NCBI GenBank assembly: GCA_002700385.1
Contig: PADC01000006.1
Location: 496,001 to 560,000 of the forward strand
Direction of reading: 5' to 3'
DNA length: 64,000 nt
From: Cycloclasticus sp.
Lineage (GTDB): Bacteria; Pseudomonadota; Gammaproteobacteria; Methylococcales; Cycloclasticaceae
Below, in pieces: positions 48,855-63,831 of this stretch. The notes beneath the pieces were generated by a model. The model was not told where the DNA came from. It did not search any database and was given only the letters and a program-made list of their open reading frames with translations. Numbering within the stretch: position 1 is the stretch's first letter; each line of letters opens with the position of its first letter. A program made the translations under genes and the position numbers.

Positions 48855-50156
48855 TTAAACACCTAACCAATGTGAAACGGCAAGTAAAACAAGGCAATCC
48901 AGCAAGTAAAGCTTTATCGCATAAACAATATTCCATTTAAAGATTTTCTTCCCTGACGCGCCGTAACGCCCCTGTAAAGCCAGATTAATACCGGACAGTG
49001 GACTGGCAGAAACCCCTACGGCCCAAGCCATTAGAAACATAATAGCGAGCAATGTCTGATTTGGTTCAATGTTAACAATCCAATGCCCTACAACCGCTAT
49101 ACTGATCACGGGGTGAACACCCAAAATTGCCAGCAAAAACATACACAGTAGAATGACTGAAGCCACTTCACCGTCAAAATAGTCAAATGGAATAGCGATA
49201 GATAAACCATCGAGTGCAGCGGCTAAACCAGATCCAAAAACACCCGCAATTAAGAACAGTAATAATTCGTTTTTCATTTGCGGCAAGCTGTTCTTCCCAT
49301 GCTGTATAAAGTCACGCCCTCCTTTGGCAGGCCCATTTCTCACCAGCAAAACAGCCATACTCAATAATAACGAACACACCGCAATCAATATAAGTACACT
49401 CACATTCTCGAAGATAGTATGCGCTATGCCTACAAGCACGACCAGACTTGCCGGCAACCACAAAGAGTCAAAATGCATTGGGTAACCTATAAAATTTTTG
49501 ATCAACTCTTTCTTCTCAGACTTCACTTCAAACAACGTAACAAAAAAAGCAACAATAGCCATACTGATCCCCACGCCCATGACTATATGTAAAGATGCTT
49601 CAGGCGTAAAAACCAGAGCTGCTGCGAATGCAGCAAAAAAAGGTGACCAGTGTGCGGCTGACGTGAAGGCCCTGATTAACAGCTTTAATTGATTCATCGA
49701 AAGCTGCGCTTTTTTAACACAGCGATCAGCAACGAGCAGTACTGCCGACACATTGATCACAGAACCAAATAAATGGACCCATAAGTAGGTCCTTAAAAAT
49801 GCCTTAAACCCCGTTGGTAAGGGTTCGATTTTCTCATTTTGCGGTAAGGCAACCAGCTGTAAAAAATGCACGCCTATTAGCATCGTGATCATCAACTGGT
49901 TATTGGAGAAGGCTTTAGCAAAGTCCTTTATTTCACCCGTTTGCCAAGCCACTAACCAGCTCAATATCGCAAGTCCAGCAATCACCAAAAGGGGTTTTTT
50001 CTGTGCTTTTCTTAAACTAAAGAACAAAATACCCCCAGCAACCCAAGTAACGGTTCCTGGAATCCAGTCCAAGTAACCTGGAACCCAGGTGCTTAATACT
50101 GTCAATACAAAACTTAGCATCAACAAGGGGCCTGAGGCCTTTTTTAAGGCGGACAT
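48855..50156 (-). CDS. Multi-pass inner-membrane protein, predicted transporter
   Basis: 433 residues with about ten to twelve hydrophobic segments. It is organised like ion-transporter superfamily permeases: two halves, with ILGVHPVISIAVVGHW and VGVSASPLSGINLALQGRYG near the end resembling re-entrant loop regions. I cannot name a family with confidence. Its ATG abuts the panE stop directly, so it is the last gene of the LLM-dmpD-panE transcript. Given that place it might carry an aromatic intermediate or a carboxylate, but that is a guess from position only. Confidence 0.7.
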   Translation of the reverse strand: MSALKKASGPLLMLSFVLTVLSTWVPGYLDWIPGTVTWVAGGILFFSLRKAQKKPLLVIAGLAILSWLVAWQTGEIKDFAKAFSNNQLMITMLIGVHFLQLVALPQNEKIEPLPTGFKAFLRTYLWVHLFGSVINVSAVLLVADRCVKKAQLSMNQLKLLIRAFTSAAHWSPFFAAFAAALVFTPEASLHIVMGVGISMAIVAFFVTLFEVKSEKKELIKNFIGYPMHFDSLWLPASLVVLVGIAHTIFENVSVLILIAVCSLLLSMAVLLVRNGPAKGGRDFIQHGKNSLPQMKNELLLFLIAGVFGSGLAAALDGLSIAIPFDYFDGEVASVILLCMFLLAILGVHPVISIAVVGHWIVNIEPNQTLLAIMFLMAWAVGVSASPLSGINLALQGRYGASGKKIFKWNIVYAIKLYLLDCLVLLAVSHWLGV

Positions 50157-51122
50157 TTACGCCTTAGGAGTTTCGACTGCTCTGCGCAATAAAGTAGAGA
50201 TAGTTCGATTATAGGGCGCGTCTTTTCCTAACTTTTCACAACCTTTAATAACGACACCACAAATTTCTTCAATTTCTAAGGGTCGGCCTTTTTCACGATC
50301 CACCAACATAGAAGGTTTGATTGAATCAAAGGTCGAAATAAGTTCAAGCATTTCTTCTAAATCATCATTTGATAATTCAACGCCCTGTGATTTCGCAGCC
50401 AACACCGCTTCACTCATTGCGCCTCTGATCAAGGGCTGCAAATCTTCCCTGGGCGTCGCATCACCTGTTTCAATTTCTAACAAGGCACATAACGGGTTTA
50501 ACCCATTGTTAATAATCAATTTCCGCCAGAGTTCTTTGTTGATATCTTTCGACATCTCCGTTGGAATTTTTGCCGCATTAAAACAACGAGCTATCGCCCC
50601 AATTTTTTCTTCCATTTCAGATGAAACAGTCTGATGATTGGGCCATTGGCCTAGAATAACCTGTGCAGGCCCTATTGATTCAACAACTCCTGGCTCAATG
50701 ATATGGGCCCCTATCCGACGAGCAATCCCCCCTAATACTACATGACGGGGTAAGGCCTCACTTAATTGCTGTTCATTATCCACACCATTTTGCAATGACA
50801 ACACAAGAGGAGCCTGACTTTTTGGAAACGACTGCAACCAATTTTTAAGTTGCTCTGCCAGGGCACCCGTTTGCATTCCTTTTAAACAAACAATCACCAC
50901 ATCGACCTGATCAGGGTTTGTCTCATTCAGCCAAGCCTCAAGGCTCAAGGCATCAACCGCTTGATGAAAGTCCAGCTCTGCATGCTTAACCTCTAAACCC
51001 TTCGTTTGCATGGCTTTTAGGTGAGCACCACGAGCTACCAGGGTGACGTCTTCCCCTGCCTGGATTAATCTGGCGGCGTAGTAACAGCCTATACCGCCAG
51101 CGCCAATGATCGCAAACTTCAC
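50157..51122 (-). CDS. 2-dehydropantoate 2-reductase family protein (PanE/ApbA)
   Basis: 321 residues. NADP-binding start KFAIIGAGGIGCYYAARLIQAG, VVIVCLKGMQT, SLQNGVDNEQ and the C-terminal domain with ELWRKLIINNGLNPLCALLEIETG (the catalytic Lys in LWRKLI). Family members reduce ketopantoate in CoA synthesis, but PanE-like paralogues are often found in catabolic clusters where they may reduce other 2-keto acids. Here it sits between dmpD and a transporter-like gene, so a catabolic role or increased CoA supply are both possible. Confidence 0.85.
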   Translation of the reverse strand: MKFAIIGAGGIGCYYAARLIQAGEDVTLVARGAHLKAMQTKGLEVKHAELDFHQAVDALSLEAWLNETNPDQVDVVIVCLKGMQTGALAEQLKNWLQSFPKSQAPLVLSLQNGVDNEQQLSEALPRHVVLGGIARRIGAHIIEPGVVESIGPAQVILGQWPNHQTVSSEMEEKIGAIARCFNAAKIPTEMSKDINKELWRKLIINNGLNPLCALLEIETGDATPREDLQPLIRGAMSEAVLAAKSQGVELSNDDLEEMLELISTFDSIKPSMLVDREKGRPLEIEEICGVVIKGCEKLGKDAPYNRTISTLLRRAVETPKA

Positions 51123-51141
51123 GTCTTATGACCCAACATGA

Positions 51142-51969
51142 CTATTCAGCTTCGGCGAAGAAATCTAAAACCAATTCATTAAAACGTGCGTTTTGTTCAA
51201 TTTGCGTCCAGTGCCCACATTTACCAAACATATGTAATTGAGAATTTGGCAACAAATCAAACAATGTCTTTGATGTAATAGGCGGCACGATTATGTCTTC
51301 ACGGCCATGAATCATCAAGGTTTCATGCTGAATGTTTTTAATATCTTCTGGCGCACTGGCTAATGCCTCAACCCAGCGTTGACGGGGCGCAGGAAACATT
51401 TTACTAAAGGACTCCTGAAACCCAGGTTGCACACTTGCTTTATAACGAAGTTCCGCTAACTCATCCGTCACCAAAGTGCGGTCATAGGCAAATAAATCCA
51501 TCATTTTACGCATATTAGCCACTGAAGGTTCATAACCCCAAACCTCATCCAGCCCTTGAGTCAACTCAAAGCTCACGCCTGCCGCACCCATCAATACAAG
51601 GCGATTCACGCGCTCCGGATGTTTAATTGCAAGTGCTAGTGATAAACCACCACCAAACGAATTACCAATCAGGTGAGCCTTTTCGATGTCCAGCGCATCC
51701 ATTAAATCAATCGCATGCTGAACCCAGTTTTCCATCGAATAATTGTAATCATCTAATCGTTCGGTAAAACCAAAACCAGCCATATCAGGTGCAATCACTC
51801 GATATTTTTCAGCTAATACCGGTATGACTAAACGCCAATTAGCCCAAGCAGTGACGCCAGGCCCTGACCCATGGATCATAAAGACAGGCGTCCCTTCACC
51901 TACATCATGATAATTGGTTTTAAAAGCGCCTGTTTGGATACTGTTTGCAATTTCAGGGTTCGCACTCAT
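51142..51969 (-). CDS. dmpD: 2-hydroxymuconic semialdehyde hydrolase
   Basis: 275 residues, alpha/beta-hydrolase. Hydrolyses the ring-fission product (or its ketone analogues from substituted catechols) to a 2-hydroxydienoate. Oxyanion motif MIHGSGPGVTAWANWRLV, nucleophile Ser in GNSFGGGLSLALAI, acid Asp in HGREDIIVPP and His in GKCGHWTQIEQ. These match DmpD/XylF/TodF types closely, including FPAPRQRWV. Unusually it is not next to dmpC but in the operon downstream of the monooxygenase, 16 bases after the flavin monooxygenase gene. Confidence 0.95.
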   Translation of the reverse strand: MSANPEIANSIQTGAFKTNYHDVGEGTPVFMIHGSGPGVTAWANWRLVIPVLAEKYRVIAPDMAGFGFTERLDDYNYSMENWVQHAIDLMDALDIEKAHLIGNSFGGGLSLALAIKHPERVNRLVLMGAAGVSFELTQGLDEVWGYEPSVANMRKMMDLFAYDRTLVTDELAELRYKASVQPGFQESFSKMFPAPRQRWVEALASAPEDIKNIQHETLMIHGREDIIVPPITSKTLFDLLPNSQLHMFGKCGHWTQIEQNARFNELVLDFFAEAE

Positions 51970-51985
51970 AACTTTCTCCTAAATA

Positions 51986-53014
51986 CTATTTTGATAAACC
52001 GAATTGATGGGCCAGCATTTTATACGACTCTACCCGTGGCTTAAAGGCATGAGTCACATTCACAATCATTAACTCATCCACCTGGTACAACGCGGATATC
52101 TGTTCTAACCTTGACTGACATTCCTCAGGCGTGCCCGTTACCATCGTGGCTAAGGTTTCGTCATAATAAGCCTGATCAGATAACGATAACTGTTTTCTTT
52201 TAACCATGACTTCATCTGGAGAAAAAAAGGCATCCCTGGCACCGTGCCTAAAAGCCTGAACCTTCCAATACGTGTGACTACTAGCGATATATTCCGCTTC
52301 TTCTTTTGAATCCGCACAAATAGCAGCCACCGCGATGATGGCTTCCGGGTTTTCAAGGCTGCCGCCTGTTTGAAAAGCTTTCTTGTAACGCTGAATAATT
52401 TCTGGCGGCCTATCATGAGTGCCAATAAAAAGAGCCAACACAAAACCAGCCCCTAAGACACCCGCGATTTCAGCACTACCATCACTTGAGCCCAGCATCC
52501 AGACAGGGGGGGCACCCACATCACTGGGGACCACAGTAGCGCGACTATAGGGGTGTTCTGAAGGCAAATTATTACTTAAAAAGCCGATTAAATCTTGTGC
52601 CTGACTCGGGTAATACTCGGCAGGAATGGTTTGCCTCGGCGCGGATATCGCGCTCGATGAAATAGGGTTACCCCCCGGAGCGCGCCCAATTCCCAAATCG
52701 ATGCGACCGGGATGAAAAGCTTCTAACATTTTAAAAGTTTCAGCAACTTTAAATGCACTATAATGCGGCAACATCACCCCGCCACTGCCCACACGGATCC
52801 GTTTAGTCGCATGCGCTACATTACTCACCATCAATTCAGGGCAAGGGCTCGCATAACCAGGCGTATCGTGATGTTCTGCAACCCAATAGCGATGATAACC
52901 CGCTTCATCACAGGCCTTAGCGAGTTCAATGGTGGTAAATAAACCACTGGACTCAGGTTGATTATCATGGACGGGGGATTGGTCTAAAACACTTAATTTT
53001 AAATGGCTCATCAT
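51986..53014 (-). CDS. LLM-class flavin-dependent oxidoreductase (MsnO8-like)
   Basis: 342 residues, bacterial luciferase-like TIM-barrel. KLSVLDQSPV opening, YHRYWVAEHHDTPG, RIRVGSGGVMLPHYS and GRIDLGIGRAPGG place it in the MsnO8-like group. These enzymes use FMNH2 or F420; substrates of this group are mostly unknown. First gene after the tmo terminator and probably first of an operon with dmpD, panE-like and the membrane protein. The substrate may be an aromatic or a by-product, but this is inference from position. Second in-frame ATG one codon later could be the true start. Confidence 0.88.
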   Translation of the reverse strand: MMSHLKLSVLDQSPVHDNQPESSGLFTTIELAKACDEAGYHRYWVAEHHDTPGYASPCPELMVSNVAHATKRIRVGSGGVMLPHYSAFKVAETFKMLEAFHPGRIDLGIGRAPGGNPISSSAISAPRQTIPAEYYPSQAQDLIGFLSNNLPSEHPYSRATVVPSDVGAPPVWMLGSSDGSAEIAGVLGAGFVLALFIGTHDRPPEIIQRYKKAFQTGGSLENPEAIIAVAAICADSKEEAEYIASSHTYWKVQAFRHGARDAFFSPDEVMVKRKQLSLSDQAYYDETLATMVTGTPEECQSRLEQISALYQVDELMIVNVTHAFKPRVESYKMLAHQFGLSK

Positions 53015-53035: not shown

Positions 53036-53062
53036 AATATTTTTACTGCTAGTAAAAATATT
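53036..53062. repeat. AT-rich 11-bp inverted repeat upstream of the flavin monooxygenase gene
   Basis: AATATTTTTAC (53036-53046) and GTAAAAATATT (53052-53062) around a 5-base centre, 22 bases before the gene start. On the minus strand it is followed by T's, so it could be a weak second terminator, but the symmetry and position suit an operator for a repressor. Confidence 0.6.
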
Positions 53063-53102: not shown

Positions 53103-53143
53103 AAATAAAAAAACCGTGCAAATAGCTCATTGCACGGTTTTCA
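53103..53143 (-). terminator. Terminator of the tmo operon
   Basis: Eleven-base-pair stem AAACCGTGCAA (53111-53121) and TTGCACGGTTT (53130-53140), 8-base loop, followed on the minus strand by TTTTTTTATTTAT. It lies 16 bases past the end of the second tmoE reading frame and separates tmoABCDE from the next operon. Confidence 0.92.
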
Positions 53144-53155
53144 TTGTCTAGCGTT

Positions 53156-53659
53156 TTATTTTAAACCCAGTGAATACCTAACAGAGGTCATATAAGCTTT
53201 TGCCTCTTGTGTTGCATCTGGTAAATCTGTCAGTTCTTTACAATAAGCTTCAACAGCTTTATCGGCCAGGGGTAACCACTTGTCTATCCACCTTTGAATA
53301 ATGGCCTCGTTAGCTTCATGATCAAGTGCAAATTCAATCAGTTTTTGTGTTTGGCGTTGATGCCGCTCTGCATCCCGCATTTGCGCATCATTCAATAAAG
53401 ACAATAAAGTATCGCCATTTTCAGCCCCCGCTAGACCGAGTTGTTTCAATACCGCTGCCGAAACAGCTGGCTTTAAGATAACGTCTAGGACAATCGTTGC
53501 TTCTGCCCAATCCCAAGTCACTAACGCTTTTTCTGCCAACTCCCTAAACCCTTGCCATGCTGTTTCATTTTCCCAATATTCTCGCTCTTTTTCTCCGAAA
53601 CCAACGTCCGCCCATGTTTTAGCCAGTTCGCAAGTGCGGTACGCAGTATGTGTCACCAA
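53156..53659 (-). CDS. tmoE: TmoE beta subunit, C-terminal half (frameshifted)
   Basis: 167 residues continuing the beta subunit of the toluene monooxygenase hydroxylase from the point where the first half stops. THTAYRTCELAKTW follows directly on the first half's SADHLRW, exactly as in T4MO TmoE (LRW-LTHTAYRT), and the rest (EKEREYWENETAWQGFREL, DAERHQRQTQKLIEFAL, WIDKWLPLADKA) matches to the end. This frame could start at TTG 53659 or GTG 53656, the latter overlapping the TGA stop of the first half; no good ribosome binding site is visible. Either a separate re-initiated polypeptide, a frameshift product or the wreck of a broken gene. Confidence 0.85.
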   Translation of the reverse strand: MVTHTAYRTCELAKTWADVGFGEKEREYWENETAWQGFRELAEKALVTWDWAEATIVLDVILKPAVSAAVLKQLGLAGAENGDTLLSLLNDAQMRDAERHQRQTQKLIEFALDHEANEAIIQRWIDKWLPLADKAVEAYCKELTDLPDATQEAKAYMTSVRYSLGLK

Positions 53660-54150
53660 CGTAAATGATCAGCCGATTGGTATGTAGCCAAATTAGAGAG
53701 GGTACTTGCCGGTGACATCTGATGAAGGTAAGCAGAGATCATTTGCAAAGCATGAAATAAATAACGGCCTGGCGCATAAAGACGCGCTAAATCAGCCGCC
53801 CATTCTTTCGAAATCATCTGATCATTGCCGCGCTCGCTGAATTGGTTTAACAACCCGGTGACATAAGATTCTTGACCTTCCTGAAGGATGTTGTAGGTTC
53901 TATAAACTAATTGTTCTGGATCTCTAAAGGCATCCCAGTTTTCATGTACTAACGGGCTATTGTTTCGGTACTTTAAGTACCAATCATTCATTTTTGCATC
54001 CTGCCCTATTTCAAATGGTTTGCCTTTATTATTTGTATGAAAATGCAAATTTGAAGTCACTATTTCATACTCACTCGGCCTTTTCCTTTGCTTAGAAAGG
54101 TGTGACCAGGTTTTTAAAGGTTTCAATGTTTCTATTTGCTCATTGCTCAT
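53653..54150 (-). CDS. tmoE: TmoE beta subunit, N-terminal half (frameshifted)
   Basis: 165 residues ending in SADHLRW and a TGA at 53655-53653. Opening ETLKPLKTWSHLSKQRKRPSEYEIV, YRNNSPLVHENWDAFRDPEQLVYRTYN and ISAYLHQMSPASTLSNLATYQ are the TmoE/TouE beta-subunit sequence. The normal protein is about 327 residues; here one base is missing after the Trp codon (TGG-TGA where TGG-GTG is expected). With one G restored a single frame of 331 residues spans 54150-53156. The beta subunit has no metal ligands but forms the (alpha-beta-gamma)2 hydroxylase core, so loss of the join would be expected to abolish the enzyme unless the halves assemble. Confidence 0.87.
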   Translation of the reverse strand: MSNEQIETLKPLKTWSHLSKQRKRPSEYEIVTSNLHFHTNNKGKPFEIGQDAKMNDWYLKYRNNSPLVHENWDAFRDPEQLVYRTYNILQEGQESYVTGLLNQFSERGNDQMISKEWAADLARLYAPGRYLFHALQMISAYLHQMSPASTLSNLATYQSADHLRW

Positions 54151-54165
54151 CATTAATCCCTCTAT

Positions 54166-54480
54166 TTAAAGTGTCTTTTCAAAGTAAAAACGGATTTTTT
54201 CCGACGTTACCTCAATTTGCCCTGCCATAGAGCCTAAATGGATTTCTATTTCATTCATTTGGAAATCACGGCCTAGTGCCTCTTCCATGGATTCCCGAGT
54301 TATTACCAACTCTTGTTCGGCTGAAATCCTAACGTATGCGCCTTTATCATCAACGCTGATGTCTTTATCTGGGTTATCCCATTCGGCGGCTTCAATCGCA
54401 GCTTGCGCAACATCACCACCGTTAAAAATAGGGCCCACTTTATTTTGTTTATAGGCGTCTTTTAATTTTGTCGTTGTCAT
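54166..54480 (-). CDS. tmoD: Toluene monooxygenase effector protein
   Basis: 104 residues, the size of TmoD (103). Cofactor-free effector that binds the hydroxylase and tunes rate and regiospecificity. NKVGPIFNGGDVAQAAIEAAEWDNP and RISAEQELVITRESMEEALGRDF are the family blocks. Fourth gene of the tmo operon, 12-15 bases before tmoE. Confidence 0.93.
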   Translation of the reverse strand: MTTTKLKDAYKQNKVGPIFNGGDVAQAAIEAAEWDNPDKDISVDDKGAYVRISAEQELVITRESMEEALGRDFQMNEIEIHLGSMAGQIEVTSEKIRFYFEKTL

Positions 54481-54523
54481 TATCTGTCTCTTCTTACGAC
54501 TCTTAAGCCGTTAGCTATCGAAT

Positions 54524-54862
54524 TTATGAATGCGCAGTAAACGGTTTAATGCCGTCAATATTGACTAACACATCCTCCCCCTCAATTTTCAGTGGATACT
54601 CCGCTATCATGCAGTCAGTTGGGTTCAACCCCTTCCCATTAGTGCTATCAAATTGCCATAGGTGGGCTTTACACGTCAGAACCTTCCCATCAAACTCACC
54701 TTCAACTAATTCGATTTCCTGATGAGGGCAAATAGCTTGAAATGCTTTTAAATCACCCCCTTCCACCCCTAAAACCAGTACTGAAGTCCCATTTTTTGTT
54801 TCAAAGGCCTCCATATCTCCTTCCCACACATCATCTAAAGTACAAATCTTTTCAAAAGCCAT
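54524..54862 (-). CDS. tmoC: Toluene monooxygenase Rieske ferredoxin
   Basis: 112 residues from ATG 54862, the same length as T4MO TmoC. The frame is open 24 codons upstream inside tmoB, but MAFEKICTLDDVWEGDMEAF is the family start. Rieske cluster ligands Cys45, His47 (CPH), Cys64 and His67 (CKAH), in the same positions as TmoC. Passes electrons from the reductase to the diiron hydroxylase. Confidence 0.95.
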   Translation of the reverse strand: MAFEKICTLDDVWEGDMEAFETKNGTSVLVLGVEGGDLKAFQAICPHQEIELVEGEFDGKVLTCKAHLWQFDSTNGKGLNPTDCMIAEYPLKIEGEDVLVNIDGIKPFTAHS

Positions 54863-54881
54863 CTCTGTGATACCCCTTCTT

Positions 54882-55142
54882 TTAACTGTCGGCGAAGATA
54901 ATATCAAGCGTCTCAGTCGGTCTCCAACCTGCATCAGATACTGTCATGTCACGAGGATAATTTTCAGTGGTATTGTGTAATCTCACACGCATCACTTTTT
55001 CAGGTTGTGCCGCAACTCGGCGACCCACGGAGTGATAAGCACACTTTTCTGCCACCTGATCCATCGTATCTTCTGTATCCACAGAGATTAACTGCATCAC
55101 GAAGTCACCCTCAAAGTTTGAATTAATTGGAAATGCCGCCAT
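54882..55142 (-). CDS. tmoB: Toluene monooxygenase gamma subunit
   Basis: 86 residues, ubiquitin-like fold gamma subunit. MAAFPINSNFEGDFVMQLIS, VDTEDTMDQVAEKCAYHSVGRRV and DAGWRPTETLDIIF match TmoB (84 residues). Second gene of the operon, about 70 bases after tmoA. Confidence 0.94.
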   Translation of the reverse strand: MAAFPINSNFEGDFVMQLISVDTEDTMDQVAEKCAYHSVGRRVAAQPEKVMRVRLHNTTENYPRDMTVSDAGWRPTETLDIIFADS

Positions 55143-55212
55143 TTTTTTCTCCCGTATAAAGCATTTTATTTTTTGTTTTTTTCGTCTTAATCAATGGACA
55201 AATCAGTTTGTA

Positions 55213-56709
55213 TTAAGCTGCACTCACTTGTTTTTTAAATGCTGCTGCCCATGCATAATCATGTGCATCTTTGCCCATTTCACCAGGCCCTAAATTCATA
55301 TAAGCCAGTGTGCCTGGAAGATCCGCCGGTTGAACTTGTCCAGACAGAAAACGATCAATTAAATTTTGATGCTCCTTATACCGCTCTGGATCTTGTTCAA
55401 AACACCAACGATCTGCCTCGGAGCCAAAATGATATAAACGCCCTTCATGCTCTAGGGGATAATCCCGTACATTCCATCCCTCTCCAGGCGTCCCCACAAT
55501 AGGTAGCTGACACATATTGCAAACATATGGCAACGTTTCGGGTAAGGTTAAGTCCTCTCTACCATTATTTAGATTCTCAGTAATCACGTCCCAGCACTTA
55601 CCCCAGGTTTTATTCCATCCTGGGTATTTTTCTTCTAACCACTCTCGATCCTCAGGAGAGGCGCCTGCTGCAGGATTCCACCAAACTGTCGGGCGCCAAT
55701 ACCATACCCCCAAGTGCATTCCATGATGAGTAACATCCAAGTCCTTCGTTAAATCTTCCCAAAACCAGGGCGCATCTAAGCCTAAGTCAGCTAATTGACG
55801 TTCAAATTGAACAATAATCCACTCAACCATAAACTCTTTGAATGACTGACTTCTATGTTCTAACGGCGTGTAATAATCCATAATCGGGCCGGTTAACACT
55901 GAGAACAGTTTCCAAGCTCGCCATATAGAAACATCAACCAATTTTTGAGCTTCTTCTTTTTGTCCATTTTCTATTAAGATTTTTAATGATGGGCCACCTT
56001 GTTGCGCATGACGTGCTTCATCAGTTTGGACACTTGAGATTAAGCTTGCGAATGTATGGTCTCCCGCTTCAGATGCATCGGCAGCGAGACCTAAGAATTG
56101 CATATTGGTAAACCCTGTTTCAAAGCCGAACGTCAACATAATGGAAACTGCAATGGCGTCGCGGCTTAACATGATGTCATCGAAAAACGAACGAGCCGCT
56201 ATGGCAGCCCAATCATTTGTATGCATCGCCTTATGCGCCCAATCCCATTGCCTGCTGCGTTTAATATTAGCGTGAGGGAAAAATAATTGAATTTGGCCAT
56301 GGCGATTTTCATCCAATGTACCAAATGTCGCCATATTACGGTTACCCGGCGCTTTTGAAAAACGGGCCATTCTTGCCTCAGCCAAACTGGCTGCATATTC
56401 ATTTACAGCAATTGCACCATAATGCGCGATCATCGTTGAAATCCAACCCGGATCGGCCCTGTCAACATAGGCATCACGCTCTAAAGCAGCTTTGACAGAA
56501 TAGGCACCGGAGTCTTTTTCCCGCTGAATGCTGACGTATTCGGGATATGTCACCTTATAGGGCTCGTCATAAGTTTCCCAGGCTTCGATAGGAATGCCTC
56601 GGCTTCCGCTCATTTCTTCAGGAAACATCTCCTCTTCAGAAACATAACTATATGTCCAATTGGTGCTACGTGTCAGGTCATACCACTCTTCTCGGGGTAT
56701 TTGATACAT
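55213..56709 (-). CDS. tmoA: Toluene monooxygenase hydroxylase alpha subunit
   Basis: 498 residues, 500 in T4MO, and collinear without gaps through the first 240 residues. Catalytic diiron subunit hydroxylating the aromatic ring. Iron ligands are all present at the T4MO positions: Glu104, Glu134, His137, Glu197, Glu231, His234; Thr201 is also kept. Substrate-pocket residues Ile100, Ala107, Phe176, Phe196 and Phe205 are kept, but position 103 is Asn (Gly in T4MO, Glu in ToMO) and 180 is Met (Ile in T4MO). C-terminal zinc-like CNMCQLP near residue 398. Start has a strong GAGGAGG site. Could use toluene, benzene, phenol or a related ring; regiospecificity cannot be read from sequence. Confidence 0.96.
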   Translation of the reverse strand: MYQIPREEWYDLTRSTNWTYSYVSEEEMFPEEMSGSRGIPIEAWETYDEPYKVTYPEYVSIQREKDSGAYSVKAALERDAYVDRADPGWISTMIAHYGAIAVNEYAASLAEARMARFSKAPGNRNMATFGTLDENRHGQIQLFFPHANIKRSRQWDWAHKAMHTNDWAAIAARSFFDDIMLSRDAIAVSIMLTFGFETGFTNMQFLGLAADASEAGDHTFASLISSVQTDEARHAQQGGPSLKILIENGQKEEAQKLVDVSIWRAWKLFSVLTGPIMDYYTPLEHRSQSFKEFMVEWIIVQFERQLADLGLDAPWFWEDLTKDLDVTHHGMHLGVWYWRPTVWWNPAAGASPEDREWLEEKYPGWNKTWGKCWDVITENLNNGREDLTLPETLPYVCNMCQLPIVGTPGEGWNVRDYPLEHEGRLYHFGSEADRWCFEQDPERYKEHQNLIDRFLSGQVQPADLPGTLAYMNLGPGEMGKDAHDYAWAAAFKKQVSAA

Positions 56710-57230: not shown

Positions 57231-57422
57231 TTAACGCCCTAACGATTTTATGGTTTTTCCACCAATACCGTAGTGGGTATTAGACATTTCCATAATCATA
57301 ACGCGAACGGCTTCGCGTGGCGCATCAACTGCCTCGCATAGTGCATCTGTTACTTTTTCAATAACCGCCGCTTTTTGCTCTTCAGTACGGCCTTCCAACA
57401 TGTGAATTTGTGCTATTGGCAT
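57231..57422 (-). CDS. dmpI: 4-oxalocrotonate tautomerase
   Basis: 63 residues. Catalytic Pro as first residue of the mature protein (MPIAQIHMLEGRTEEQKAAV), Arg residues in REAVRVMIMEM and GGKTIKSLGR. Isomerises 2-hydroxymuconate to 2-oxo-3-hexenedioate on the dehydrogenase branch. Last gene of the operon, 11 bases after dmpH. Confidence 0.95.
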   Translation of the reverse strand: MPIAQIHMLEGRTEEQKAAVIEKVTDALCEAVDAPREAVRVMIMEMSNTHYGIGGKTIKSLGR

Positions 57423-57433
57423 TTAATTTCTCC

Positions 57434-58225
57434 TTATTCTACAAAACGCATAGTAACAGTACCCAAGTTTTGATAACGCACTGAAACGTTATCACCCGCT
57501 TTAACAGCAATGGCTGGAGTAATTGCGCCCGCCATGATAAAGGTTCCAGCTGGAATCACTTCGCCACGCTCTGCTAATAGGTTAGCTAGCATAGCGACAC
57601 TTGCAGCTGGATGACCTAATATAGCTGCACCTGCACCAAGCTCCACCACCTCACCATTAATTTCCATAACAACACCAAGTGTTTTAAGGTCTAGGTCTTC
57701 AACAGGTAGCATGCGGCCGCCAGTTACAAAACGTGATGATGAAGAGTTATCAGCTATCACACTTTTAAGGTCAAATTTAAAATCTTTGTAGCGAGAATCA
57801 ATGATTTCGACGGCTGGTACAATAAAGTCGGTCGCTGATAAGACATCGCCAATATGACAGCCAGGGCCACTAAGCTCTTTTTTCGTCACAAACGCAACTT
57901 CTGCTTCTACCTTTGGGTGAATAAGTTCAGAAATTTTTATTTCTGCACCATCTGGGCAACTAAAATAATCTGCTAAAAATCCATAACAAGGCGTTTCAAC
58001 ACCCATTTGACGCATTTTAGCCATGGATGTTAAGCCCATTTTTAGGCCAACAATTTTGTTACCTCTCGCTTCTTTACGACGGCGTATTTCCCATTGCACA
58101 TCAAGTGCTTCATCCCAAGTGATCTCAGGATAATCATTGGTAATTTTTGTTACTTCTGTGCAGTTTAGCTCTGCATTCTCAAGGTGTTCTGCTAATTTTT
58201 CAATCGTTGCTTTATCTAATGCCAT
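57434..58225 (-). CDS. dmpH: 4-oxalocrotonate decarboxylase
   Basis: 263 residues. Decarboxylates 2-oxo-3-hexenedioate to 2-oxopent-4-enoate with Mg2+. KVEAEVAFVTKKELSGPGCHIGDV and KMGLTSMAKMRQMGV identify it, and it is a paralogue of the hydratase DmpE two genes upstream, with which it forms a complex in known systems. Order F-G-H-I is kept. Confidence 0.93.
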   Translation of the reverse strand: MALDKATIEKLAEHLENAELNCTEVTKITNDYPEITWDEALDVQWEIRRRKEARGNKIVGLKMGLTSMAKMRQMGVETPCYGFLADYFSCPDGAEIKISELIHPKVEAEVAFVTKKELSGPGCHIGDVLSATDFIVPAVEIIDSRYKDFKFDLKSVIADNSSSSRFVTGGRMLPVEDLDLKTLGVVMEINGEVVELGAGAAILGHPAASVAMLANLLAERGEVIPAGTFIMAGAITPAIAVKAGDNVSVRYQNLGTVTMRFVE

Positions 58226-58234
58226 GGTGATCCC

Positions 58235-59257
58235 CTAAGCTGATTTCTTTTTAATTTCTAATGCGACGTCTTCGATCATATCTTCTTGACCACCTACTGC
58301 GCCCATTCTTCCAAGTTCCATTAATATTTCTCTTGCTGGCACACCGTGGTTCTTTTCAGCACGTTTTGCGTGTAACAAGAATGATGAATAAACACCGGCA
58401 TATCCAAGTGTCAATGAATCTCTATCTATGCGTGTAGGTGTTGGCATTAATGGCAAAGCAATGTCTTCTGCTACATCCATTATCTTATCGACACTAACAC
58501 CTGTCTCAATACCCATTCTGTCACACACAGCAACCATCACTTCTAATGGAGTATTACCTGCACCCGCACCAAAACCTGCAACTGATCCATCAATGCGCGT
58601 TGCCCCTGCTTCAATAGCAGCTAGTGAATTTGAAATGCCCATTGCCAAATTATGATGACCATGAAAACCAATTTCCACATTATCACCAAACTCAGCTTTT
58701 AAAATTCCAATGCGGTCTGTCACGTCATCCGGCAATAAGTAGCCCGCTGAGTCTGTTGCGTAAATACAGTTCGCACCATAGTCCACCATCTTTTTCGCTT
58801 GTTCTAGCAACGCTTCCGGTGACGTCATATGAGCCATCATCAAAAAACCTACCGTATCTAGGCCATATCCACGTGCTTTCAAAATATGCTGCTCAGATAC
58901 ATCCGCTTCTGTACAGTGAGTCGCGACTCGAATCGTTGAAATCCCACAATCAACTGCCATAGCAAGGTCATCGACCGTTCCTAAACCTGGCAATAATAAA
59001 GCCGAAATTTTGGCATTTTTCATCTTGGGTACAACGGCTTCTAGGTATTCACGATTACTGTGCTTACCAAAACCATAGTTAACTGAAGAACCACCCAAAC
59101 CATCACCATGTGTTACCTCAATCAGCGGCATACCTGCTTCATCAAGTGCTACAGCCATACGAACCATATCATCAAGTGAAAACTGGTGACTGACTGAATG
59201 CATACCATCACGCAGTGCATTGTCATGTAATTTAATTTTCTTACCTTTTAAATCCAT
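58235..59257 (-). CDS. dmpG: 4-hydroxy-2-oxovalerate aldolase
   Basis: 340 residues. Cleaves 4-hydroxy-2-oxovalerate to pyruvate and acetaldehyde; channels acetaldehyde to DmpF. TIM-barrel metal site [17 protein letters not shown], with [15 protein letters not shown] holding the two metal-binding His. C-terminal helical DmpG communication domain after about residue 275. Confidence 0.96.
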
Positions 59258-59267
59258 TATCTGCCCC

Positions 59268-60173
59268 CTAAGCTAGTTTCTTTAGCGTTAATGTACCGTT
59301 TTCAATTTCTTCGGCAAACATTTCGGCTGTTCTTGTTGCTGACGCTGTCATAATATCTAAATTGCCAGCATACTTAGGTAGATAGTCACCCAACCCTTCA
59401 ACTTCTAGGAAAATACTCACTCGATTACCATCAAAAACAGGGCCATTTTTTAATGTATAGCCAGGCACATATTTTTGAACCTCTTTGATCATCGCATGTA
59501 CTGAGGCGGTAATAGCTTCTTGATCTGGCTCAGTCTGTGTCAAGCAGTGAACCGTATCACGCATAATTAAAGGGGGTTCAGCAGGGTTAAGAATAATAAT
59601 CGCTTTACCTTTTTTAGCGCCGCCAATTTGCTCTACAGCTTGCGCTGTTGTACGGGTAAACTCATCTATATTCTTACGTGTTCCTGGACCAGCAGATTTA
59701 GAAGCAACGGTAGCAACAATCTCACCATATTCAACCGCTTGAACTTGACTAACCGCGGCCACCATTGGAATCGTTGCTTGGCCACCACAAGTCACCATAT
59801 TAACGTTCATTTCTTGCTCGCCCACGTGTTCTTTTAAGTTAACTGGAGGCACACAAAAAGGCCCTATCGCTGCTGGTGTCAAATCAATGACCAACACGCC
59901 TTTTTCTTGTAACTTACGGTTATTTTCACCATGCACATAAGCAGATGTTGCATCAAAAGCAATTTGAATATTATCTTCTTCAATGTGTGGAATTAAACCA
60001 TCAACCCCTTCGTGCGTTGTTTTTAAACCCGCTTTTTGTGCTTTTAATAAGCCATCAGATTCTGCGTCAATGCCTACCATCCAAACAGGGTTCAGGTTTG
60101 CACTGCGTTGTAGCTTTGCCATTAAGTCGGTGCCGATATTACCAGAACCAATCATTGCGCAATTTATTGCCAT
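59268..60173 (-). CDS. dmpF: Acetaldehyde dehydrogenase (acylating)
   Basis: 301 residues. Oxidises acetaldehyde to acetyl-CoA in complex with DmpG. NAD loop [15 protein letters not shown], catalytic Cys in [14 protein letters not shown], and [14 protein letters not shown]. Ten bases upstream of dmpG. Confidence 0.96.
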
Positions 60174-60198
60174 GTTTATACCTTACTCATTTTTTATT

Positions 60199-60984
60199 TT
60201 AAACGAAGCGAACCGATGCTGAACCGATACCACCCACACTCACTCTCATTGAATCACCGGCTTTTGCATCCACCATCGCACATAGTGCGCCGGATAAAAT
60301 AACTTCACCTGCTTTCAATGTAACGCCCAAGGCACCCATTGTATTGGCTAACCAAGTCATTGCATTAACTGGGGAACCTAACGCTGCTGCGCCTGCACCC
60401 GTGTGCATCAATTCACCATTTTTTTCTAATGTTAACCCGCACACACTTAAGTCTATTTTACGCGGATCAACGGCCGTACCGCCTAGCACCAAATACCCAC
60501 AAGAGGCATTGTCAGCGACGGTATCTTGAATTTTAATTTTCCAATCTTTGATTCTTGAATCGACAATTTCAAAACAAGGCATGACTGATTCAGTAGCCGC
60601 TAAAATATCCGCATTGGTTAGCCCTGGCCCGCATAGGTCTTTTTTAAGTACGAATGCTATTTCACCCTCGGCTTTTGGTTGAATCATTTTTTCAGATACG
60701 GGGATGTCTTGCCCTTCAGAAAAAACCATATCGGTTAGAAGGTAACCAAAGTCTGGCTGGTTCACATCCAACATATCCATCACTACTTGGCTAGTACAGC
60801 CTACCTTTTTACCAACGATTTTTTCACCTGCCTCAATGCGACGAGAAATCATTTGATTTTGGATCGCATAAGCATCTTCGATAGTCACTTCTGGAGAGCG
60901 CTCAGTGATTGGCGCAATTGTTTGGCGCGTAATTAAGGCGTCATAAAGCTCATCGCCGTATTGTATTATTTTCTTTTGATCCAT
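60199..60984 (-). CDS. dmpE: 2-oxopent-4-enoate hydratase
   Basis: 261 residues. Adds water to 2-hydroxypenta-2,4-dienoate giving 4-hydroxy-2-oxovalerate. KKVGCTSQVVMDMLDVNQPDFG, KAEGEIAFVLKKDL (metal ligands Glu) and SVNAMTWLANTMG-like end (PVNAMTWLANTMG). It joins both branches of the pathway. Confidence 0.95.
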   Translation of the reverse strand: MDQKKIIQYGDELYDALITRQTIAPITERSPEVTIEDAYAIQNQMISRRIEAGEKIVGKKVGCTSQVVMDMLDVNQPDFGYLLTDMVFSEGQDIPVSEKMIQPKAEGEIAFVLKKDLCGPGLTNADILAATESVMPCFEIVDSRIKDWKIKIQDTVADNASCGYLVLGGTAVDPRKIDLSVCGLTLEKNGELMHTGAGAAALGSPVNAMTWLANTMGALGVTLKAGEVILSGALCAMVDAKAGDSMRVSVGGIGSASVRFV

Positions 60985-60994
60985 TTCTTAATCC

Positions 60995-62446
60995 TTATAG
61001 TTTTACACAAACATTCGTTAATTCTGAATAGAATTCTAATGAATAATGGCCACCTTCGCGACCTGTACCTGATTGTTTTGCACCCCCAAATGGTGTGCGT
61101 AAATCACGTAAGAACCAGCTATTAACCCAGCATACTCCCGTGTCCATTTTAGCAGCCACTCTATGTGCGCGTGAATTATTTTCTGTCCAGACCGACGATG
61201 CTAATCCGTAAGGGGTATCATTGGCTAATTCAATTGCCTCGTCTTCAGTATCAAAGGGACAGATATGGGTACATGGGCCAAAAATTTCCTCTTGCACAAC
61301 CTTGGACGTTTCGGGTAACCCCGTCCAAATCGTTGGCTCAACCCAGTATCCACCAGACAAATCTTCTGGCATATCTGGAATTCCACCGCCGGTTACCACT
61401 GTCGCGCCCTCATCAACCGCTGCTTTATAGTAGCTGAGCACTTTTTCACGGTGTGCCGCGCTAATTAATGGCCCCATATTCGTCTCCGGGTCTTCTGAAC
61501 GACCTAACTTAAGCGCCTCAGCCCCTTCTTTTAAGCGCTGAACAAACTCGTCAAAAATTGAACGTTCAACATACAGCCGCTCTGTGCCCAAACAAACTTG
61601 GCCACAGTTAGCAAATGCAGAACGTAAGGTGCCTTCAATCGCTTTGTCCATGTCGCAATCTGCAAATACAATACCCGCATTTTTACCACCAAGCTCCAAC
61701 GATGAATCACGTACACCCACAGAAGCTGCAGCCGCAATACGCTCACCTGTTGCAGTTGAACCTGTAAAAGTAATGGCATCTAAACCTGGGTTCGTGATTA
61801 ATGCTTCACCCACTTCACGGCCTTTGCCTAAAATAACGTTATAAACACCTTTTGGCACACCCGCATCATTCATCACCTCACCCAGCAGACTCGATGTTAA
61901 TTGTGTTTCTTCAGATGGCTTAACAACTACCGTATTACCGCATGCCATCGCAGGGGCAATTTTCCACGTCATTAACAATAAAGGCAAATTCCAAGGTCCA
62001 ATCACACCGATCACACCTTTAGGCTTACGCACGGTGTAGTTCAGAGCGCCTGTACCATCAGGAGTTGGCATATGAAATGCCTCATCAGCCGCATTTTTAA
62101 TCGTATCTGCAAAAATCTTAAAGTTAGCTGCACCACGAGGAATATCTATATGACTCGCTAAAGAGTAGGGCTTTCCTGTATCTAAACATTCAGCCTCCAA
62201 AAATTCATCAAAGCGGGCGTTAATACCATCAGCAACTTTATATAAAATATCAACACGATCCTGGATTGAATAACCTGCCCAAGGACCTTTAAGTGCTTGA
62301 CGGGCAGCCTCTACCGCTTCACCAACTTGCGCTTCGCTTGTTTTATGATATTGACAGACCAACTTACCGGTCGCCGGGGAATAGATATCACCAAAATTAC
62401 CCGAGCTAACGAATTCGCCGTTAATAAATCCTTGTACTTCTCTCAT
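60995..62446 (-). CDS. dmpC: 2-hydroxymuconic semialdehyde dehydrogenase
   Basis: 483 residues from ATG 62446, which follows AAAGG by 9 bases; a TTG three codons earlier is too close to that site. Aldehyde dehydrogenase fold: GPWNLPLLLMTWKIAPA, FTGSTATGERI, ELGGKNAGIVF (general base Glu) and catalytic Cys in NCGQVCLGTERLY. Oxidises the semialdehyde to 4-oxalocrotonate with NAD+. Third gene downstream of the dioxygenase, separated from it by the GlcG-like gene. Confidence 0.95.
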   Translation of the reverse strand: MREVQGFINGEFVSSGNFGDIYSPATGKLVCQYHKTSEAQVGEAVEAARQALKGPWAGYSIQDRVDILYKVADGINARFDEFLEAECLDTGKPYSLASHIDIPRGAANFKIFADTIKNAADEAFHMPTPDGTGALNYTVRKPKGVIGVIGPWNLPLLLMTWKIAPAMACGNTVVVKPSEETQLTSSLLGEVMNDAGVPKGVYNVILGKGREVGEALITNPGLDAITFTGSTATGERIAAAASVGVRDSSLELGGKNAGIVFADCDMDKAIEGTLRSAFANCGQVCLGTERLYVERSIFDEFVQRLKEGAEALKLGRSEDPETNMGPLISAAHREKVLSYYKAAVDEGATVVTGGGIPDMPEDLSGGYWVEPTIWTGLPETSKVVQEEIFGPCTHICPFDTEDEAIELANDTPYGLASSVWTENNSRAHRVAAKMDTGVCWVNSWFLRDLRTPFGGAKQSGTGREGGHYSLEFYSELTNVCVKL

Positions 62447-62473
62447 AATTTTCAACCTTTTACTAAAATATAA

Positions 62474-62905
62474 TTAAACCAATACCGTGTTAATAGCATC
62501 TATACCCGCTTGAGCACAGAGGATATCTTCTTCCTCAGAGCCACCTGAAACGCCGATCGCACCAATGATTTCTTCACCCTCAATAATCGGCAAGCCACCG
62601 CCAAAGGTGACCACATTTGGCCGCCCAACAATGCCTGCTTGCAATTGAGCATTACCTTGAAGCACATCACCCCATTGCATAGTAGGAAACCCGAAACCTG
62701 CCGCTGTATATGCTTTATCTTTAGCAATACTCATTGATGGCAAAAATGAATTATTCATGCGCAAAAATGCAATTTCTGTTGCGCCACTATCAACAACCGA
62801 GACATTGATACCAATACCTATTTCTTTAGCTTTTTCAACGGCAGCTTGCGCGGCGGCGCAAGCTGCTTCTGTTGAAATATTTTTCGTTACAATACTGTTA
62901 GACAT
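62474..62905 (-). CDS. GlcG/HbpS-like (DUF336) protein
   Basis: 143 residues. Signature KEIGIGINVSVVDSGATEIAFLRM, SIAKDKAYTAAGF and GGGLPIIEGEEIIGAIGVSGG. The family includes HbpS, a haem-binding sensor partner of Streptomyces, and GlcG of glycolate loci; several members bind small ligands and many sit in aromatic or diol catabolic operons with unknown role. No signal peptide, so cytoplasmic. It stands between dmpB and dmpC with spacings of 5 and about 27 bases. Confidence 0.88.
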   Translation of the reverse strand: MSNSIVTKNISTEAACAAAQAAVEKAKEIGIGINVSVVDSGATEIAFLRMNNSFLPSMSIAKDKAYTAAGFGFPTMQWGDVLQGNAQLQAGIVGRPNVVTFGGGLPIIEGEEIIGAIGVSGGSEEEDILCAQAGIDAINTVLV

Positions 62906-62910
62906 AATAA

Positions 62911-63831
62911 TCAGGAGGTCACACCCATGAAACTATCCACTAACTGCCGTGAGTGGTAAAAAATAGCCTGGCCAATATTATCAGCCGTCCACGTCAATAC
63001 AGGAGAATCAGGGTAAACATAGCTGTCATCTGCAAACACTTCATTGCGATTACCCGATGGATCAAAGAAGTAAATAGTTTGACCACGCGTTAAACCATGG
63101 CGCGTTGGGCCTGTTTCTAATGGAATATCTTCCATAGAAATAATATCACCCGCTTTTAAAACACCTTCCCAAGAACCTAACAAGAATGATGCATGATGCA
63201 ATTTCCCTGACTCTTCATGACGAATAAAGGCGACATCATGCGCTTTAGTACTGCACGTTAAAAAGGCTGCTAGTCGTACATCGCCATCCATTATTTGCTC
63301 TGTTAATTGAAACTCTAACGCTTCGGTAAAGAACTTAAGATTTTCATCAAAATTATTGCCATATAACAAACAATGATCGAAACGAATCGGCTCCATTCCT
63401 TTCAACCCTCTTGGCCACGGCGCTGGATTAGTAGTGCCCACCATATTGCCCACTTGCTCTTTTTCAGCAAATAGATCAAACGTATGACCTGCTGGCCCAA
63501 CAAAACGTACTCTTTCGCCGCAACCATTTAATTCACCCGCTGGCACGCGTTTAGTTTCAATACCAAAATTTTTAACGTTTGACTCAAAGCGCCATAAGTC
63601 TTGTTCCGTTGCTACTTTAAACGCCATATGATCCATGCCTGAGCGATCTGAAGGCTCTAAAACAACTGAGAATTTATCCTGCTCATCCCAACATTTAAGA
63701 TAAACACGACCCTGATCATCACGGTCGGTTTCAATCAACCCTATGTTTTCACAATAATGATTTATTGCTTCTTCCATATCCAAAACTCTTAACTGAACGT
63801 GCCCTGGACGTAATATACCTGTCATAGCCAT
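62911..63831 (-). CDS. dmpB: Catechol 2,3-dioxygenase
   Basis: 306 residues, 307 in DmpB/XylE. Extradiol Fe(II) enzyme cleaving catechol to 2-hydroxymuconic semialdehyde. [20 protein letters not shown] opening typical of single-ring I.2.A enzymes; iron ligands His in [10 protein letters not shown], His in [10 protein letters not shown] and Glu in [10 protein letters not shown]. Start ATG 63831 with AGGAG 7 bases upstream. Preceded by the ferredoxin that reactivates such enzymes. Confidence 0.96.

Follow-up and report, generated by a model that had tools for sequence, protein, structure and literature searches.

Introduction

The meta-cleavage of catechol is a textbook route of phenol degradation, in which hydrolases of the DmpD family convert ring-fission products to 2-hydroxypenta-2,4-dienoate (the enol of 2-oxopent-4-enoate) or to its alkyl homologues. 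The present analysis concerns four adjacent genes found near the operon for this route in a 64,000-nucleotide stretch of DNA from Cycloclasticus sp. (hereafter the window; positions 496001–560000 of contig C12 in the source genome, G000, of ~2.5 Mb). They encode a luciferase-like flavin monooxygenase (LLM), a DmpD-type hydrolase, a reductase related to PanE, the ketopantoate reductase (KPR) of coenzyme A (CoA) synthesis, and a membrane protein. The meta-cleavage pathway itself is known, yet its operon has here an undescribed accessory unit, kept across the genus and found again in another phylum. No description of this four-gene set was found among the best-ranked matches in the open-access literature, in line with an initial annotation, made from the letters of the window, that knew of no described system of such composition. 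The unit may act as an accessory valve on the phenol/catechol meta-cleavage pathway, reducing and moving a 2-oxo acid that arises from ring fission, and this reading, drawn from sequence comparison, is given a probability of about 0.4.

The chemistry of two related enzymes bears on this proposal. MsnO8 was reported to epoxidise a conjugated enone (PMC10709465, in excerpt). For the KPR of Escherichia coli, the side chains of Asn194 and Asn241 were modelled to bind the 4-hydroxyl group of the substrate, and a role of N184 was described (PMC10127515, in excerpt); roles of K176, N98, E256, K72, S244 and N180 in KPR were described in PMC3478992 (in excerpt).

Gene Order and Conservation in the Genus

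The four genes lie head to tail on the minus strand in the order LLM, dmpD, PanE-like gene and membrane protein gene, and the gaps of 16, 19 and 0 bases given in the initial annotation were found to be exact from the coordinates of the open reading frames (ORFs). Its family calls were also borne out by Pfam and NCBIfam for the LLM (MsnO8), the hydrolase and the PanE-like reductase; the membrane protein, referred to below as the permease, matched no family. The complete order on this strand is phenol hydroxylase, dmpQ, dmpB (catechol 2,3-dioxygenase, C23O), a small ORF, dmpC,E,F,G,H,I, tmoABCDE, a terminator-like hairpin, LLM, dmpD, PanE, permease, fabA and fabB, with the phenol hydroxylase genes further upstream, outside the window (L086). 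By synteny and by the family of its product, dmpD is thus grouped with C23O and the dmp lower-pathway genes.

The unit is probably its own transcript, because the hairpin cuts it off from the tmo genes. This hairpin could be made out in all 10 genomes aligned, in a weaker form in L023 and L026, and five of its 11 pairs show compensatory changes. Since it is kept regardless of the genes upstream, the unit very likely has its own promoter. At the other end, fabA and fabB come after the permease gene in G000 and in nine other genomes; in G005, fabA was not found within 2.8 kb downstream of the permease. A search of the 84 bases between permease and fabA gave no terminator-like site, so that read-through from the unit into fabA-fabB may occur. 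A perfect 10-base inverted repeat, TATTTTTACT-AGC-AGTAAAAATA, stands at 53038–53060, just ahead of the LLM gene; it was considered as an operator and dropped, as it is not conserved in the aligned relatives.

In 11 of the 18 genomes of the genus set, a single contig carries all four genes in this order, which places the unit beyond chance. This count includes G005, whose LLM is cut by a contig end and whose permease frame is interrupted, and G003, whose contig ends inside the permease gene; G002, with the pieces on two contigs, is not counted. The initial annotation had named an adjacency peculiar to this strain as a refutation of its proposal, and this was not the case, the order being found in these 11 genomes and also on an Arcobacter plasmid. 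Taken singly, LLM was found in 13 of the 18 genomes (the G016 copy being reduced to some 109 residues and containing a stop), PanE orthologues (63% identity or more) in 12 and the permease in 13, the lowest match being that of G008 (41%), at an unrelated place. The LLM is 79–91% identical in nine other aligned genomes of the genus and DmpD 84–92% in ten. All four genes are under purifying selection, with dN/dS values (ratios of nonsynonymous to synonymous substitution) of 0.017–0.101; 14 of 16 gene-pair comparisons yielded a value, those of the G000/G007 pair being near saturation. Evolution is faster in PanE and permease than in LLM and dmpD.

The four genes remain adjacent whether or not tmo genes have been inserted. 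The tmo operon is absent upstream of the unit in G014, G003 and G001; the unit directly follows dmpI in the first two, and in G001 it is intact behind ~16 kb of other genes. An intact LLM and the PanE of the unit are both missing from six genomes (G008, G009, G010, G011, G015 and G016). Five of these lack a meta-type dmpG, G016 keeping a scrap of dmpH; G015, the sixth, has a fragmented meta operon that stops inside dmpH.

Association with Aromatic Genes outside the Genus

Occurrence outside the genus was assessed in a class sample of 369 genomes and a phylum sample of 349, both even and incomplete draws, and neighbouring genes were tested with proteins of the Cycloclasticus and Arcobacter clusters plus chosen Pfam scans. 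On plasmid pACLO of Arcobacter cloacae (Campylobacterota), genes for phenol hydroxylase, C23O, dmpC,E,F,G,H,I, LLM (56%, in the same place), dmpD (62%) and PanE (47%) occur together with a transporter annotated as AEC family, which takes the last slot instead of the permease. The association of the unit with meta-cleavage is thus found in two phyla. A PanE relative (44%), annotated in two pieces, also comes after the phenol meta operon on a plasmid of Marinobacter salarius, with no LLM match in the 31 kb stretch.

The PanE clade (E up to 1e-50) was found in nine genomes of the class sample, seven of them outside the genus, and four of these seven members lie in aromatic clusters. The permease adjoins PanE in three, as dmpEFGHI–tmoABCDE–PanE–permease in G380, as PanE–permease beside phenol hydroxylase–C23O in G326 and as dmpD–PanE–permease beside phenol hydroxylase in G200; in the fourth, G152, C23O and dmpD–PanE belong to a 3-hydroxyanthranilate-type cluster with a DctM gene. 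At L114 (5593–14925), C23O, an MFS transporter, dmpD, PanE, a small ORF, 3-hydroxyanthranilate dioxygenase, an amidohydrolase and a DctM gene stand in a row, and judged by these neighbours this PanE lies within a 2-aminomuconate-type pathway. The remaining members (G224, G281 and G383) showed no meta cluster with the query set used. In G224 (L111:8797–11433), a PaaX-type regulator (phenylacetate catabolism) lies one small ORF from PanE, and in G383 an alpha/beta hydrolase gene is next to it. The phylum sample gave three genomes with the clade, of which the only new one, G730, has it outside an aromatic cluster.

The permease profile matched 25 genomes of the class sample. Outside the genus, besides the three places adjoining PanE, 18 of the 20 remaining places were examined (G173 and G287 were left out). 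In G427, a DmpR-type regulator, an AEC transporter and the permease stand in a row beside phenol hydroxylase (L147:6072–9958), and both transporter kinds are therefore present in one genome. The permease place at L159 gave a weak partial hydrolase match only. The LLM is the least constant member of the unit and, among the places examined outside the genus, was found together with the other genes only in Arcobacter. Its relatives (E up to 1e-100) occur in five genomes of the class sample, with four places in three genomes outside the genus, of which the second place of G434 was left out.

Encoded Proteins

The PanE-like protein scored 232 bits against TIGR00745 (cut-off 141), and both ApbA domains, N-terminal (PF02558) and C-terminal (PF08546), were found above cut-off. 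It is the sole match above the TIGR00745 cut-off in G000, where the PF02558-type N-domain alone also exceeds its own cut-off at three other places, the match there being weak or covering only part of it. The clade members were aligned with three reference enzymes (E. coli PanE and, as PDB chains, Pseudomonas aeruginosa and Thermococcus kodakarensis KPR), and residues K72, N98, K176, N180, N184, S244 and E256 (E. coli numbering) were found to be retained in 20 of 20 members. N194 is replaced by T in 18 of them and by S in two, and N241 by I in all 20; both asparagines are present in all three reference enzymes. Because both residues modelled to bind the 4-hydroxyl group are replaced in all 20 members, the natural substrate is probably a 2-oxo acid without this hydroxyl. 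4-Hydroxy-2-oxovalerate, which resembles ketopantoate, was considered as a substrate and dropped, since the 4-hydroxyl-binding residues are lost and E. coli KPR was reported not to accept 4-substituted 4-hydroxy-2-oxo acids (PMC10127515, in excerpt).

Another PanE-like protein, distinct from that of the unit (about 30% identity) and encoded near an aldehyde dehydrogenase, was encountered at L088 (1556–6157) and similarly at L089, L090, L092, L093 and L170. It was not found in G000, and N180 and N184 of KPR are missing in six of six aligned sequences. At L088, DHDPS-family and isopropylmalate-dehydrogenase-like proteins are encoded between it and the aldehyde dehydrogenase, and ORFs of the same sizes were seen at L089, L093 and L170.

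The LLM scored 344 bits against TIGR03558 (cut-off 167) and is a member of the MsnO8 family. Its closest solved relative is a luciferase-like monooxygenase, PDB 4us5 (E about 1e-52), which we take to be the MsnO8 of mensacarcin biosynthesis. The hydrolase has full-length homology to CumD (PDB 1iun, E 5.6e-127 over residues 3–274).

The permease gave no Pfam or NCBIfam match at E 0.001, so that no Pfam transporter family recognises it, and no PDB chain was matched by sequence at E 1. A low-confidence AlphaFold model was compared with known structures; the best Foldseek match was VcINDY (E 1.9e-3), with none at 0.001 or better, and in VIA 17 of the first 20 rows were chains that we take to be TRAP QM or INDY/NaS/NaCT/Pho90 proteins, the best Z being 7.6. 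The two comparisons thus agree, although a Z of this size would not be convincing by itself. The modelled fold suggests that the protein is probably an ion-transporter-superfamily carboxylate permease, and a small carboxylate would be the natural guess for its cargo.

Proposed Role and Alternative Explanations

In the proposed valve, DmpD would hydrolyse ring-fission products to 2-hydroxypenta-2,4-dienoate or alkyl homologues, and the PanE-like enzyme, no longer built for ketopantoate, would reduce a 2-oxo acid of the lower pathway to the 2-hydroxy acid, its substrate most likely being the unsaturated 2-oxopent-4-enoate or 2-oxohex-4-enoate. The permease (AEC in Arcobacter) would carry the 2-hydroxy acid across the membrane, most likely outwards, and the unit would relieve any build-up of the reactive keto acid. 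The LLM, where present, would probably oxidise some other ring-fission product with a conjugated carbonyl, much as MsnO8 is reported to act on a conjugated enone in mensacarcin biosynthesis (PMC10709465, in excerpt). The initial annotation had thought of a side route for ring-fission products or of their uptake or export; the tie to catechol meta-cleavage was supported by synteny and by the Arcobacter plasmid, and we infer the side-route role, the compound, the direction of reduction and of transport and the whole LLM reaction. A fuller version, possible but doubtful, would be that a new enzyme, a PanE-derived 2-oxo-alkenoate reductase, and a carboxylate exporter of a new permease family form a relief valve of extradiol catabolism, coupled in some operons to an LLM that processes ring-fission products, with transporters of two families, one unnamed and one AEC, filling the same slot.

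Several results weigh against the valve. In three genomes (G002, G003 and G006) LLM and PanE are present with no match to a meta-type dmpG, the contigs of G003 and G006 ending in dmpH just upstream of the unit and the G002 genome being 73% complete. The PanE-clade members at L111, L115, L116 and L168, which have no meta cluster nearby, carry the same T/S and I residues, so that the loss of the asparagines is not confined to members in aromatic clusters. The aromatic label does not form one clade on the PanE tree, where it requires three changes, and the tie to aromatic genes was therefore lost or gained more than once. Relatives of the LLM (50–52%) were found near aromatic genes at none of three places examined in three genomes outside the genus, and no flavin reductase partner is encoded among the four genes. 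Similarly, 17 of 21 permease places outside the genus in the class sample, some on short contigs, had no phenol or meta gene by the query set, and the same was found for two genomes of the same order (G023, with a weak partial hydrolase match, and G029). The permease model (11 sequences) reached a pLDDT of 58 and a pTM of 0.60, and hhalign of the permease profile against one DctM and one AEC sequence gave no match.

One rival account is that PanE is an ordinary KPR for CoA supply, perhaps raised because DmpF (acetaldehyde dehydrogenase) uses CoA, next to an unrelated permease. The initial annotation had named as a refutation of its own proposal that PanE is the only one of its genome and serves CoA synthesis; it is indeed the sole match above the TIGR00745 cut-off in G000, as also in G007, the catalytic KPR residues are retained and panB is present. 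Nevertheless, four genomes of the genus that are 98–100% complete (G008, G011, G015 and G016) have panB and ilvC with no PanE above that cut-off, so that the genus can do without it, and together with the loss of both 4-hydroxyl-binding asparagines this makes a role in CoA synthesis unlikely. The genus thus appears able to reduce ketopantoate without the PanE of the unit. Moreover, genomes whose meta operon is absent or disrupted lack PanE, and in Arcobacter it lies on a plasmid inside a phenol operon, all of which renders the CoA-supply account as a whole improbable. Equally concerned with the genes as separate entities, and very improbable, is the view that dmpD serves the meta pathway and the other three are merely neighbours on its transcript without a common pathway. 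The relatives of LLM and permease far from aromatic genes would fit it, but the order is kept in the genus despite insertions and in another phylum, and PanE–permease pairs recur beside phenol genes.

Two other accounts accept a joint function. The unit might work inwards, the permease importing an aromatic or 2-hydroxy acid and PanE feeding the lower pathway as a 2-hydroxy acid dehydrogenase. The nearest folds, INDY and TRAP, belong mostly to importers, and a DctM gene lies near dmpD–PanE in G152; PanE enzymes are known, however, as NAD(P)H-dependent reductases, the AEC transporter that replaces the permease belongs to a family named for efflux (by name only), and no extra aromatic-acid entry enzyme is encoded within the unit, so that import is considered unlikely. 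Alternatively, LLM and DmpD could carry out one step for substituted catechols, in which the LLM oxygenates a ring-fission ketone or enone (to a Baeyer-Villiger-type product or an epoxide) for hydrolysis by DmpD, and PanE and permease clear the resulting 2-oxo acid. LLM immediately precedes dmpD both in the genus and in Arcobacter, these two are the more constrained pair of the four genes, and the chemistry of MsnO8 is directed at conjugated enones (PMC10709465, in excerpt), whereas in G200 and G152 no LLM accompanies dmpD and PanE, and this joint step is regarded as quite unlikely.

If the valve on the meta-cleavage pathway is real, reactive 2-oxo-alkenoates would be handled by reduction and transport, which bears on the tolerance of marine oil degraders to a high flux of benzene, toluene and phenol. 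The routine CoA-pathway annotation of this PanE clade would be corrected, and the unnamed permease family would gain a function. On the fuller version, the use of this family in Cycloclasticus and of AEC in Arcobacter in one slot would imply that membrane transport of the reduced acid is required and was convergently solved.

Neighbouring Operons

The coordinates of the unit and of the operons upstream of it are given in Table 1. Two overlapping ORFs (53653–54153 and 53156–53659, minus strand) make up the tmoE gene in the window; the relatives checked have it in one frame (e.g., L024, and L110 with one ORF of 328 aa), and the split is either a real frame break or a sequence error. No tmoF reductase gene follows tmoE in the tmo operon. 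In the remnant cluster of G016, a Fer2/FAD/NAD reductase (L169:396–1421) lies between a tmoC-like scrap and the LLM remnant. The small ORF between dmpB and dmpC (62474–62905) recurs there in the relatives read, and the same slot in pACLO holds a gene annotated as heme-binding protein.

Table 1. Features of the four-gene unit and its upstream neighbours (positions in the window).
Feature	Position	Strand	Remarks
Membrane protein of unnamed family, probably an ion-transporter-superfamily carboxylate permease	48855–50156	-	433 aa
PanE-like 2-oxo acid reductase	50157–51122	-	321 aa, GTG start; TIGR00745; T219 and I268 replace the 4-OH-binding Asn
DmpD/CumD-type meta-cleavage-product hydrolase	51142–51969	-	275 aa, alpha/beta hydrolase, CumD match
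MsnO8-family LLM flavin monooxygenase, first gene of the unit	51986–53014	-	342 aa, TIGR03558
Terminator-like hairpin with T run	53109–53142	-	Between the upstream aromatic operon (tmo genes) and the LLM gene
tmoABCDE-type monooxygenase operon, between dmpI and the unit, not a member of it	53156–56709	-	Pfam, synteny
Meta-cleavage operon: dmpB (C23O), small ORF, dmpC,E,F,G,H,I (tautomerase)	57231–63831	-	Homology to annotated Arcobacter genes

Comparison with Known Systems

The nearest published likeness among the best-ranked literature matches is a fosmid insert in which a luciferase-family ORF (26) is next to a meta-cleavage-type hydrolase (25), a luciferase-like ORF (11) lies two ORFs from a 2-dehydropantoate reductase (13) and a complete C23O-dmp cluster (31–43) is carried as well (PMC5591006, in excerpt). 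In contrast to the locus described here, its LLM-, hydrolase- and PanE-type genes do not form one unit, and the excerpt gives them no joint role.

The single proteins compare with different systems. E. coli PanE has the fold family and the seven catalytic residues in common with the PanE-like protein, but the identity is 24% and both 4-hydroxyl-binding asparagines are replaced in the latter. MsnO8 (PDB 4us5) belongs to the same NCBIfam family as the LLM of the unit and is its closest solved relative, whereas the genetic setting differs. CumD, a 2-hydroxy-6-oxo-7-methylocta-2,4-dienoate hydrolase, matches DmpD over its full length, and its gene neighbours differ from those of the unit. VcINDY and TRAP QM of the ion-transporter superfamily gave the best structural likeness to the permease model, with Z below 8 and with no sequence match at E 1. 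On the Marinobacter salarius plasmid, dmpD lies between dmpC and dmpE, unlike in the unit. The dmp/phenol meta-cleavage operon is the closest system, since all its core enzymes are encoded in the same genome region here and DmpD is its hydrolase; compared with the classical operon, dmpD is found outside what we take to be its usual place, in a separate unit with an LLM, a PanE-like reductase and a transporter.

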